A stretch of DNA of 61,742 nucleotides from Chromobacterium sphagni (GTDB lineage: Bacteria > Pseudomonadota > Gammaproteobacteria > Burkholderiales > Chromobacteriaceae). The stretch covers positions 1-61,742 of the forward strand of contig NZ_MKCT01000016.1 of the NCBI RefSeq assembly GCF_001855555.1. Reading direction: 5' to 3'. Positions 8,989-11,649 of this stretch are shown in pieces; the first letter of the stretch is position 1, and every line of letters starts with the position of its first letter. The position numbers and the translations under genes are program-made. Under the pieces are notes generated by a model that saw only the letters and a program-made list of their open reading frames with translations, had not been told where the DNA came from and did not search any database.

Positions 8989-9073
8989 GTCCCGGCCGGC
9001 CGCCGGCATGTGACGGCAGATTGGGCTTGCGTTACCATCGGGCGGATAATAAAGCCTGATGGAGTATTCTAAA

Positions 9074-10069
9074 ATGAGCCGAATTCTGGCGCTCTACACC
9101 GGCGGTACCATAGGCATGGACCACACTCCGGAAGGCCTGGCGCCCGTGCCAGGCCTGCTGCCGCGCCTGCTGCAGCGTTTCGCCCGCCCGGGCCTGGAGT
9201 TCGACATTGTCGAATTCGAGCATCTGATAGATTCCTCCTCCCTCGCTCCCCGGCAGTGGAACCAGATCATCGATGCCCTTGCCGCGCGCTACGACGCCTA
9301 TGACGGCTTCGTCGTGATTCATGGCACCGATACCATGGCTTATACCGCCAGTGTGCTGGCCTTCGCCTTGCAAGGCTGGAAGAAGCCGGTGGTGCTGACC
9401 GGCGCCCAACTGCCGCTGGTGCATCCGCGTTCCGACGGCTGGGCCAATCTGGCCGATGCGCTGGAGGCGGCCTGCCAGCCGGATCTGCATGAAGTGGCGG
9501 TGGCTTTCGACCGGCTGCTGCTGCGCGGTTGCCGCGCGCGCAAGCTGGACGTGGAGCGCTTCGCTGGTTTCGCCAGCCCCAACGACCAGCCATTGGCCGA
9601 GTTCGCCATCCATGCCCATTGGCATCGCCAGCGCTGGTTGCCAGGCGAAGGAGAGCGGCGCGAGCTGCGAGTGGATGAAAATCTGAAGCTGGCGGCGCTG
9701 ATGCTGACGCCGGGCCATGGCGGCGCGCTGGCTGGCCAGATTCTGCAGCAAGGCGGCCTGGATGGCGCCATCCTGCTCGCTTACGGCAGCGGCAATGCGC
9801 CCGCCGATCCCGCCTTATTGGCTGGCATCAAGGCGATGGCCGAACGCGGCTGCCCGGTGCTGACCCTGACCCAGGTGGTGCGGGGCGGCGTGGAGGTGGG
9901 GGCTTATGCCGCCAGCCAGCCGCTGGCGCGCGCCGGTGCGCTGCCCGGCGCCGACCTGACGCCGGAGGCGGCGCTGGCCAAGCTGCAGGTGCTGCTGTCC
10001 GCCGGACATGCGCCGGCGGAACTGGCCCTCAGGCTGCGGAGGCCGCTGCGCGGCGAGATGAGCGCCTGA
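9074..10069 (+). CDS. ansA: L-asparaginase (type I, cytoplasmic)
   Basis: 331-residue asparaginase/glutaminase-family amidohydrolase converting L-asparagine to aspartate and ammonia. Both catalytic segments are visible: TGGTIGM at residues 10-16 (nucleophilic Thr) and HGTDTMAYTAS at about residues 85-95. There is no signal peptide and the length matches E. coli AnsA (about 338), so it is probably the cytosolic form. ATG 9074 is preferred because GGAG lies nine bases upstream; an in-frame ATG at 9059 has no ribosome site. Monocistronic, followed by a repeat whose first motif can form a terminator. Confidence 0.9.
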   Translation: MSRILALYTGGTIGMDHTPEGLAPVPGLLPRLLQRFARPGLEFDIVEFEHLIDSSSLAPRQWNQIIDALAARYDAYDGFVVIHGTDTMAYTASVLAFALQGWKKPVVLTGAQLPLVHPRSDGWANLADALEAACQPDLHEVAVAFDRLLLRGCRARKLDVERFAGFASPNDQPLAEFAIHAHWHRQRWLPGEGERRELRVDENLKLAALMLTPGHGGALAGQILQQGGLDGAILLAYGSGNAPADPALLAGIKAMAERGCPVLTLTQVVRGGVEVGAYAASQPLARAGALPGADLTPEAALAKLQVLLSAGHAPAELALRLRRPLRGEMSA

Positions 10070-10095
10070 CGCCTGACCATGCTTCAGCAGGGTTG

Positions 10096-10566
10096 CCTAA
10101 AAAATGGGCAGCCCTTTTTTATCTTCAGGCTTCAACGACTTGGCGGGCTTTTCCACAGCGCGTCCACATGGCTTTGCACTGCTGGTGTGGGGAAAGGCGA
10201 AGGTTCTCGCGCCGATGGCGCGGGGGTGGTTTGCCGCGTGGCGATTAAAAAATAGGCGGAGGGCGGGAGTCGGCGTCAAATCAGCCACTTGCCCCGTTTG
10301 TCCACATGTCGCGCACAGGATTGTGTACCGCAAGTGGGGATTCCGCCGGCTGCGGGCATGGTCGATTCCGCTTAAAAAACAGGCAGTGCTGTTTTGCGCT
10401 TGCAGTTCAGTGGTTTGCCTCACCTATCCACAATGCGCCCACACGGCTTTGCACCGGCATTGGGGAAAAAGTTCCCGCTTGCTTAAAAAACAGTCAGCGC
10501 GGCGAATGGCCTGATAGTTCAATGGCTTGTCTGGCTTGTCCACAGTCAGCTCACAGCCCTGTCCCC
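10096..10566 (+). repeat. DnaA-box-like repeat cluster, units 1-4
   Basis: Four direct repeats. Each opens with motif A, YTTAAAAAA-like (starts 10096, 10244, 10371, 10482), followed after 53-54 bases by motif B, a DnaA-box-like nonamer (TTTTCCACA 10149, TTGTCCACA 10298, CTATCCACA 10424, TTGTCCACA 10536). Behind B comes a second CACA-containing half (for example CTCACAGCC at 10550). The bases between are only loosely conserved, but the A-to-B distance is fixed. In units 1 and 3 motif A can pair with a downstream T-run to give a weak terminator hairpin. Two further units lie at 11224 and 11336, beyond the NadR-like gene. Confidence 0.8.
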
Positions 10567-10605
10567 GCAAGCTGTGAAAATCCGGGAAAGCTGGGCGCGC
10601 CGGGG

Positions 10606-10611
10606 TATAAT
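10606..10611 (+). promoter_or_regulatory. Candidate -10 box for the NadR-like gene
   Basis: A perfect TATAAT stands 60-70 bases before the start of the kinase gene, just after repeat unit 4. No good -35 hexamer is seen at the usual distance, so this is only suggestive. Confidence 0.25.
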
Positions 10612-10676
10612 GGCCGGCTCGGTTCCGGTGACTGCTGGCGGCGTCTGCCGGCGGCCGCGGACAGGATGTGTGGAAG

Positions 10677-11228
10677 ATGCGGCAGAGTCAGGTCGGCGGG
10701 CCGATCCGGGTGGCGATAGTCGGCCCGGAGTCCAGCGGCAAGAGCACGCTGGCTGAGGCGTGGGCCGAGCGTTTGAGGCGGGAAGGCCGGCGCGCCGCCT
10801 GGGTGGCGGAATACTCGCGTGCCTATTATGCCGATCGGCCTTATATTTCCAGCATGGCGGACATTGAGGCGATAGCCGCGGGCCAGTTGACGGCGGAGGC
10901 GCGGGCAGCCTGCGGCGCCGACATCCTGTTGTGCGACACCACCGTGCTTACCTGCAAGATCTGGGCGGAAGTGGCTTTCGGCCGGGCATCTCCCGCGTTG
11001 CTGCGGCTGTACCGGCCGCAGGATTACGCGCTTACCTTGCTGACCCGGCCGGACATGCCGTGGCAAGCCGATCCGCTGCGCAGCCATCCCACCCAGCGCG
11101 ACTGGCTGCTGGATCTGCACCGGCGGGAATTGGCCGACATGGGGATCGCCGCCGTCGAACTGGCGGGCGGACCGGAGGAAAGGCTGGAGCGGGCGGGGCA
11201 GGCACTTTTGCCGCTGCTGGCTGCCTAA
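10677..11228 (+). CDS. NadR-like AAA ATPase / nicotinamide riboside kinase-type protein
   Basis: 183 residues corresponding to the kinase-like P-loop domain found at the C-terminus of NadR. Walker A is GPESSGKST (residues 16-24), followed by WVAEYSRAYYADRP, a motif typical of this group, and ILLCDTTVLTCKIW as the Walker B strand. The DNA-binding and adenylyltransferase domains of full NadR are absent, so a stand-alone ribosylnicotinamide kinase role is possible but unproven. ATG 10677 is used because AGGA lies ten bases upstream; GTG 10668 is in frame but too close to it. The stop codon TAA is part of motif A of repeat unit 5. Confidence 0.7.
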   Translation: MRQSQVGGPIRVAIVGPESSGKSTLAEAWAERLRREGRRAAWVAEYSRAYYADRPYISSMADIEAIAAGQLTAEARAACGADILLCDTTVLTCKIWAEVAFGRASPALLRLYRPQDYALTLLTRPDMPWQADPLRSHPTQRDWLLDLHRRELADMGIAAVELAGGPEERLERAGQALLPLLAA

Positions 11229-11420
11229 AAAATAAGCGAATGAAAAAGCGGTTGTGGAATCAGCGGTTTGCCGCGCTTGTCCACAACGACTCCACAGCCT
11301 TGTCCGTCGGCGGCGTGGATAGCCGGCAAGAGCTGCCTAAAAAATGGGCGACGAAAAAAAGATCAGACAGATTAAGGGCTTGGCGGCCTTGTCCACAGGC
11401 CGCTCACAAGCCTGTCCAGA
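11224..11420 (+). repeat. DnaA-box-like repeat cluster, units 5-6
   Basis: Two more copies of the repeat seen at 10096-10566. Motif A starts at 11224 (CCTAAAAAATAAGCGA) and 11336 (CCTAAAAAATGGGCGA). Motif B is TTGTCCACA at 11277-11285 and 11389-11397, again exactly 53 bases after A, each followed by a second half (CTCCACAGCC 11290, GCTCACAAGCC 11402). Unit 5 supplies the stop codon of the NadR-like gene, and unit 6 ends about 14 bases before the S4-domain gene. Confidence 0.8.
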
Positions 11421-11433
11421 ATAGGTGTGCAAA

Positions 11434-11649
11434 ATGAAAGAAACGTTCCGGCTCAACAGCGAATACATCGCCTTGTGCGATCTGCTCAAGGCCTGCAATG
11501 TCTGCCAGTCCGGCGGCGAGGCCAAGCACTTCATCGCCGAGGGCAATGTGCAGGTGGATGGCGCGCAGGAACTGCGCAAGACCTGCAAGATCCGCGCCGG
11601 CCAGCAGGTGAGCGGCGATGGTTTCCATATCCAGGTCGAGGCCGTCTGA
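11434..11649 (+). CDS. ybcJ: S4-type RNA-binding protein, YbcJ family
   Basis: 71 residues forming a small S4-like RNA-binding domain. The pattern IALCDLLKACNVCQSGGEAK, then IAEGNVQVDG and RKTCKIRAGQQV, parallels E. coli YbcJ (70 residues) along its whole length. Such proteins bind RNA and are loosely linked to ribosome or rRNA handling, but the exact role is not settled. First gene of a compact group with the next two genes (1-base gap, then overlap). Confidence 0.85.
   Translation: MKETFRLNSEYIALCDLLKACNVCQSGGEAKHFIAEGNVQVDGAQELRKTCKIRAGQQVSGDGFHIQVEAV

Follow-up and report, generated by a model that had tools for sequence, protein, structure and literature searches.

A conserved six-fold array of predicted Fis, IHF and DnaA sites in Chromobacterium: a probable DnaA control locus with DARS2-like geometry

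In the literature consulted, the control of DnaA by the DARS and datA loci has been worked out in Escherichia coli, where DARS2 regenerates ATP-DnaA with IHF and Fis, and according to a review DARS-like sequences occur in many proteobacteria (PMC10380432). DARS1 and DARS2 share the spacing of their core boxes, with box I opposite to boxes II and III (PMC5742627), and the head-to-head pair of boxes is described as essential in DARS (PMC10380432). In E. coli MG1655, DARS1 lies between bioD and uvrB and reads TTATCCACT, 5 bp, inverted TTATCCACA, 3 bp, inverted TAATACACA. DARS2 lies between rppH and mutH, an interval that also holds ygdT, and reads TTATTCACC, 5 bp, inverted CTATCCACA, 3 bp, inverted TTCTTCACA; beyond this core lie two IHF-like sites separated by 3 bp, and then a Fis consensus. 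This assignment of the DARS2 boxes was made here and agrees with the IHF pair at 3 bp described in PMC4245941; further right, there is another set of boxes that resembles it. None of the titles among the literature matches listed refers to a DnaA-control array from Neisseriales or Chromobacterium.

Here we describe an array of six cassettes in Chromobacterium sphagni. The window analysed is a whole contig of 61,742 bases from a 4.74-Mb genome. Judged from its sequence, the locus is probably a DnaA control locus built from predicted Fis, IHF and DnaA sites.

Layout of the array and its predicted sites

An initial annotation of this DNA had reported six pairs of motifs, A and B, and all six copies of each are found where it placed them; a repeat search independently recovers six copies with a unit of 46 nt. 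Each copy is a cassette of about 100 bp. It begins with a Fis-type site (motif A); an IHF-type core lies 20-21 bp further on, and another 6 bp separate this core from four DnaA-box-like nonamers (D1 to D4) in a 9-2-9-3-9-5-9 spacing with the last one inverted. Motif B is the first nonamer, D1, and reads TTTTCCACA, TTGTCCACA, CTATCCACA, TTGTCCACA, TTGTCCACA and TTGTCCACA in units 1 to 6, starting at 10149, 10298, 10424, 10536, 11277 and 11389. The features are as follows.

9059..10069, + strand: asparaginase family gene, upstream of the array
10095..10109, + strand: unit 1 Fis-type site GCCTAAAAAATGGGC, matches the published consensus and contributes to a terminator-like hairpin downstream of the asparaginase gene
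10130..10142, + strand: unit 1 IHF-type core CTTCAACGACTTG, 2 mismatches to WATCARNNNNTTR
10149..10194, + strand: unit 1 nonamers, D1 10149-10157, D2 10160-10168, D3 10172-10180, inverted D4 10186-10194
10243..10257, + strand: unit 2 Fis-type site GATTAAAAAATAGGC, matches the published consensus
10279..10291, + strand: unit 2 IHF-type core AATCAGCCACTTG, 0 mismatches to WATCARNNNNTTR
10298..10343, + strand: unit 2 nonamers, D1 10298, D2 10309, D3 10321, inverted D4 10335-10343 (weak)
10370..10384, + strand: unit 3 Fis-type site GCTTAAAAAACAGGC, off the published consensus (C for T)
10405..10417, + strand: unit 3 IHF-type core, 2 mismatches
10424..10469, + strand: unit 3 nonamers, D1 10424 (CTATCCACA), D2 10435, D3 10447, inverted D4 10461-10469
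10481..10495, + strand: unit 4 Fis-type site GCTTAAAAAACAGTC, off the published consensus (C for T)
10517..10529, + strand: unit 4 IHF-type core, 2 mismatches
10536..10581, + strand: unit 4 nonamers, D1 10536, D2 10547, D3 10559, inverted D4 10573-10581
10668..11228, + strand: AAA_28 ATPase gene between units 4 and 5, its stop codon inside the unit 5 Fis-type site (11223-11237)
11223..11237, + strand: unit 5 Fis-type site GCCTAAAAAATAAGC, matches the published consensus
11258..11270, + strand: unit 5 IHF-type core AATCAGCGGTTTG, 0 mismatches to WATCARNNNNTTR
11277..11322, + strand: unit 5 nonamers, D1 11277, D2 11288, D3 11300, inverted D4 11314-11322 (CTATCCACG)
11335..11349, + strand: unit 6 Fis-type site GCCTAAAAAATGGGC, matches the published consensus
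11370..11382, + strand: unit 6 IHF-type core GATTAAGGGCTTG, 2 mismatches
11389..11434, + strand: unit 6 nonamers, D1 11389, D2 11400, D3 11412, inverted D4 11426-11434 (TTTTGCACA, full consensus)
11434..11649, + strand: S4_2 domain protein gene, downstream; its ATG is touched by the unit 6 D4 (11426-11436)

The initial annotation gave the distance from A to B as 53-54 bp. The constancy holds, but taken as a 15-mer resembling GCYTAAAAAAYRGGC, motif A starts 54 or 55 bp before B in all six units. Motif A itself is real; its Fis-type character had gone unrecognised. The bases between A and B had been regarded as free sequence; instead they hold an IHF-type core, TCARNNNNTTG, 6 bp before B in five units and with one change (TTAAGGGCTTG) in unit 6. 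A second CACA half after B had been noted correctly, but it is one of three further DnaA-box-like nonamers. The proposal that selection acts on protein-DNA geometry at this locus is supported.

The pattern TTGN6TTNTCCACA has five perfect matches in the genome, all within the array. With one mismatch allowed, it has 62 forward and 42 reverse matches versus 14 and 14 in the reversed control, so that loose B-like sites are common elsewhere in this genome. The exact A-gap-B pattern occurs four times, always in the array (control, 0), and no cassette match away from the array was found in this genome at up to 2 mismatches. Scattered genome-wide copies of this pattern, which the initial annotation had named as the mark of an ordinary dispersed repeat, are therefore absent. 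The same exact pattern is present in all 19 genus genomes, this one included.

For statistics on the sites we aligned 108 units from a profile search (28 bits or more), consisting of the array units of 19 genomes and two units at a second locus of one genome. The arrays have six units in twelve genomes, five in six and four in one. The Fis-type form used, GNNYRNWWWNYRNNC, is our working assumption of the motif and is looser than the published GNNYANNNNNTRNNC; the Fis and IHF motifs used in the searches are partly looser than the published GNNYANNNNNTRNNC and WATCAANNNNTTR. Motif A fits GNNYRNWWWNYRNNC in 106 of the 108 units, the two misses being L037:5921 and L041:4775. The published Fis consensus is found at -54/-55 in 87/108 genus units, 39/86 units of other genera and 23/64 units of other families, as compared with 0.03-0.05 per offset elsewhere; in the window, units 1, 2, 5 and 6 fit it and units 3 and 4 do not. 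The AT centre of motif A varies between A6, T6 and mixtures of the two across the 108 units, with the G, YR, YR and C positions retained. Such a pattern of variation would be that of a Fis dimer site.

The IHF-type core lies at -19 to -7 from D1. Mismatches to WATCARNNNNTTR number 0 in 16 units, 1 in 36, 2 in 45, 3 in 10 and 6 in 1. Against the published consensus WATCAANNNNTTR, there is 1 mismatch in 35 units, 2 in 53, 3 in 18, 4 in 1 and 7 in 1; sites without mismatch number 0/108 in the genus, 3/86 in other genera and 2/64 in other families. When units were chosen by Fis, D1 and D2 with IHF unused, the best IHF offset was -19 both in the genus (n=64, mean 7.39 of 9) and in other families (n=31, mean 7.16 of 9). 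For the DnaA boxes, offsets 0, 11 and 23 on the forward strand and 37 on the reverse strand are among the ten best-scoring and form the D1-D4 series with gaps of 2, 3 and 5; the remaining top-ten offsets are the reverse read of D1, shifts and an A-tract. The mean number of matches to the DnaA consensus (of 8) is 7.19 for D1, 6.52 for D4, 4.77 for D3 and 4.72 for D2. What persists in D2 is mainly CACA, and in D3 chiefly the T, T and C of positions 2, 4 and 6 of the box.

The repetition could also be read as a structured RNA, a small-RNA array or a dispersed or mobile repeat, which we regard as highly improbable. Motif A is palindromic and some units are about 112 bp apart. Pairing within the palindrome, compared with 500 shuffles, shows a weak excess at two positions, 5 and 4 (reached by 9 and 12 shuffles in the genus, and by 11 and 46 in other families), and none at positions 6, 3 and 7. 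Against this, no Rfam family matches at gathering scores (a search to E 10 returned two sub-threshold hits at E 1.5), the RNAalifold consensus fold of 33 units chosen from the 108 contains 0 pairs, and no match was found in the phage collection. A toxic small RNA family of Betaproteobacteria, considered as a candidate, has neither an Rfam nor a literature match and was rejected. The initial annotation had also considered that two units form weak terminators and that the repeat marks transcript ends. Only unit 1 scores as terminator-like (1 found versus a mean of 1.8 in shuffles), and this single site, together with the lack of consensus RNA pairs, speaks against a general role of that kind. 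The hairpin spans 10089-10115 in the window; many other genomes of the genus likewise have a T-run after unit 1.

Conservation and spread of the cassette

The array is syntenic at one place in all 19 genus genomes searched. Among the twelve six-unit genomes, the most similar unit from a different genome occupies the same array position in 71 of 72 cases, and mean unit identity is 0.74 for the same position versus 0.54 otherwise. The units are therefore old and have been kept individually, and the same orthology indicates no recent spread, which counts against a mobile repeat. A second locus with one or two cassettes was observed in one genome (L042:4677-4908, G007), and single pattern matches occur in several other genus genomes.

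Within the genus the neighbourhood is syntenic. In the closest relative fetched (G016), the S4 protein is 96% and the AAA_28 protein 84% identical. All 18 genus relatives have S4_2 next to the array, and 17 each have asparaginase (the contig ends in G009) and AAA_28. Units 4 and 5 are separated by about 0.7 kb in most genomes with six units, by 1.1 kb in L041, and by about 3.9 kb in G008 and G012 (L031, L035), all six units being kept in the latter two. This synteny, the contact of the unit 6 D4 with the S4 start codon and the location of unit 1 within a terminator-like site would suit a local function, in which transcription of the asparaginase, AAA_28 or S4-domain gene would be under the control of these sites. 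We nevertheless consider this very unlikely. A search for promoters of the sigma-70 type found 0 in 10000-11500. G014 keeps 4 units, with AAA_28 not found within its 12-kb stretch, and cassettes of other families occur without these genes: eight window proteins were sought in 20 other-family stretches (1.6-5 kb) and none was found in 19 (the other, G191, retains asparaginase, S4 and PHP). None of the eight was found at eight 8-kb Chitinimonas/Parachitinimonas loci or two Iodobacter loci, and a Laribacter MAG keeps the neighbourhood without AAA_28. Because the cassette is kept where the adjoining genes differ, it is unlikely to be an element of the neighbouring genes.

A composite pattern (IHF, D1 and D2, up to 2 mismatches) matches 61/61 family genomes from 10/10 genera, with one control match. 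At least three matches on one strand are present in 59/61; of the two exceptions, G027 (61% complete) has a single match, perhaps due to chance, and G046 (84% complete) has two. In an order-wide search 99/399 genomes match, 13 of them from the same family; outside the family, 16/386 have at least three matches on one strand, not always on one contig (G318: three contigs). Reversed-control matches occur in about 10 order genomes and never more than one in each, and single composite matches across the order may be chance. A scan of named genomes, with a search pattern that also includes part of D3, yielded 46 stretches from Chromobacterium, Aquitalea, Vogesella, Paludibacterium, Crenobacter, Craterilacuibacter, Laribacter, Iodobacter, Chitinimonas and Parachitinimonas, as well as one stretch labelled Neisseriaceae and one labelled Xenophilus. 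Two more of the 46, from a Pyrinomonadaceae MAG and from AM_0268, have neither the Fis-type site nor D4. The 23 named loci from other genera, among them the Laribacter MAG and the Neisseriaceae-labelled stretch, have the Fis-type motif in 77/86 units and D4 in 75/86. The corresponding counts are 22/27 and 24/27 for Chitinimonas plus Parachitinimonas, and 2/2 and 2/2 for Iodobacter.

The held-out sample consisted of 20 stretches from 17 of the 86 matching non-family genomes, a non-random choice of clustered or clean cases. Its 64 units were anchored on IHF, D1 and D2 (up to 3 mismatches), leaving Fis, D3 and D4 unused. The Fis-type motif is found at -54 in 42/64 and at -55 in 3/64 units, as compared with a mean of 0.13 (max 6) at other offsets; for the published Fis consensus, the other offsets give a mean of 0.04 (max 2). 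D4 reaches at least 6 of 8 matches in 89% of units versus a mean of 2.8% (max 22%) in control windows, and D3 has T at positions 2 and 4 in 35/64. The distance from Fis to D1 is 54 or 55 bp in 105/108 genus, 77/86 other-genera and 45/64 other-family units. Among units with a Fis-type match, 227/228 have one of these two distances and one has 65; 30 units across the three sets have no Fis-type match in reach.

Chromosomal position and comparison with DARS2 and datA

An oriC-like cluster is matched in 10/10 genomes. In the genome studied it is the densely DnaA-boxed L055 (C1:865800-867200), which is probably oriC; dnaA is on the same contig, some 236 kb away. A dif-like site was found in 9/10 genomes, the miss being this draft genome (G020 has two, of which the better was used), and it lies opposite the oriC-like cluster, at 0.48-0.51 of the circle, in the 9 genomes. 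With another DnaA-box cluster opposing the dif-like site, we infer that the array is not the replication origin. A further observation on the same contig is L056:448-619, where seven same-direction DnaA-box-like nonamers lie within about 170 bp.

The array is located at 0.551-0.677 of the oriC-dif arm in 6 Chromobacterium genomes and at 0.359-0.412 in 3 genomes of the next genus. For E. coli, the arm fractions are 0.64 for DARS1, 0.42 for DARS2 and 0.19 for datA, as computed from the map minutes in the legend of PMC4585315 with ter set at 36 min. Judged from the strand and the arm of the array, units read in the Fis-to-D4 direction along the fork in 9/9 genomes. The genome encodes a Fis-like protein that shares 49% identity with E. 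coli Fis across residues 25-96; its Fis-family HTH exceeds the Pfam cut-off, and the protein falls just short of the NCBIfam Fis cut-offs (98.0 of 99; 110.1 of 122). IHF-alpha and IHF-beta are above their cut-offs, five of the six HU/IHF-family genes having been scanned. An Hda-like protein is also present (scan of a 67-aa piece).

Compared by geometry, the reversed Chromobacterium unit (D4, 5, D3, 3, D2, 2, D1, 6, IHF, 20-21, Fis) has the same order and the same core gaps as E. coli DARS2, with the IHF-type site on the box III side and the Fis-type site beyond it. The distance from the Fis site to the IHF core is 23 bp in DARS2, by a consensus match made here, versus 20-21 bp in the cassette, and both loci are mid-arm. 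The differences are also clear. DARS2 is a single element in E. coli, whereas six tandem cassettes are found here. The cassette adds a strong box, D1, between core and IHF, and the core-to-IHF distance is 58 bp in DARS2 versus 17 bp here (D2 end to IHF core). D3 and D2, the counterparts of boxes II and III, score 4.77 and 4.72 of 8 versus 7-8 for all six E. coli DARS core boxes. The host is outside the gamma-proteobacteria, where PMC4245941 and PMC8682772 place the DARS2 core and Fis. The cassette shares its core box geometry with DARS1 too; DARS1 can act without added factors in vitro (PMC5742627), whereas the cassette keeps Fis-type and IHF-type sites. Given the weak core boxes, the differing core-IHF distance, the 0/108 perfect matches to the IHF consensus and the cleaner core beside priA described below, the array is only DARS2-like, and not a proven DARS.

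The relation to DnaA proposed by the initial annotation is supported; it also suggested a datA-like role. Like datA, the array combines a DnaA-box cluster with an IHF site and is mostly intergenic. By this reading, the IHF bend beside D1 would build ATP-DnaA oligomers on D1-D2-D3 and promote ATP hydrolysis. The IHF-type core 6 bp from D1 agrees with it. So do the strong and weak boxes at 2-3 bp intervals, which suit head-to-tail assembly of ATP-DnaA as at oriC (PMC8682772); an oriC-type oligomer platform likewise combines a strong box with weak ones spaced 2-3 bp apart next to IHF. The existence of a separate DARS-like core before priA also favours this reading. Yet datA is described as needing boxes flanking IHF on both sides (PMC4585315), whereas the nonamers of a unit are all on one side, the D4 of the preceding unit lying outside each unit. 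The Fis-type site is not named as a datA feature in the parts of the literature consulted, and the array is not near the origin (0.36-0.68 of the arm versus 0.19). DARS2 is the better fit in its combination and order of Fis, IHF and DnaA sites, in the gaps of 3 and 5 bp between boxes and in its location midway along the arm, and we regard the datA-like reading as rather unlikely. Somewhat less likely still is simple titration, by which the array would merely hold DnaA and delay initiation, with IHF and Fis tuning its occupancy. Six strong D1 and moderate D4 boxes in one place would serve that end; titration alone, however, needs neither a rigid Fis-IHF-DnaA spacing across families nor an inverted D4 at 5 bp.

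Of these readings we tentatively favour, at somewhat short of even confidence, that the six cassettes act on DnaA in the manner of E. coli DARS2. What was found comprises the sites, their spacing, order and conservation, the mid-arm position, and a gene set encoding a Fis-like protein, the two IHF subunits and an Hda-like protein; that proteins bind the sites, and in which direction the nucleotide changes, we infer. Motif A would be occupied by Fis and the TCARNNNNTTG core by IHF, and the IHF bend would bring the Fis end towards the DnaA cluster, consisting of the strong D1, weak D2 and D3 at 2-3 bp intervals, and the moderate inverted D4 five bp on. D3 and D4 would be the counterparts of DARS boxes II and I, and D2 of box III, and DnaA bound there head-to-head would be driven to release ADP, raising ATP-DnaA before the next initiation. 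Fis might link this reactivation to growth rate, and the six copies might raise its capacity. The cassette probably helps to time chromosome replication.

A broader and more speculative possibility is that Chromobacteriaceae, Chitinimonas and their relatives use multi-copy Fis-IHF-DnaA cassettes as a copy-number-tuned replication timer, distinct from the single E. coli DARS2. If so, the number of cassettes per genome (mostly 3 to 8, by pattern count) would set the speed of DnaA recharging, and the locus of the element would differ between families. Outside the gamma-proteobacteria, a conserved six-fold cassette that relies on the same proteins would mean that such control is older or has arisen again. 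The array also offers a natural fixed-geometry repeat for studying the effects of IHF bending, Fis and box spacing on DnaA, and of cassette number on initiation.

A second DARS-like core near priA

The canonical DARS core pattern, searched with at most 3 mismatches, has one match in the genome, at C17:263454-263488 with 2 mismatches. It reads TTGTTCACA, 3 bp, TTATCCACA, 5 bp, inverted CTGTGCACA, the boxes being at 555, 567 and 581 of L057 (C17:262900-264000), and the gene that follows carries a PriA 3'-DNA-binding domain. This core being the cleaner one, the DARS of this organism may lie elsewhere than in the array; the presence of the core raises the chance that DARS-type control exists here. 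The DNA around the core matches in 18/18 family genomes from 7 genera, with the matches limited to short stretches in the more distant of these; conservation of the core was read from the correctly oriented alignment rows. The core is located at 0.31-0.46 of the arm.
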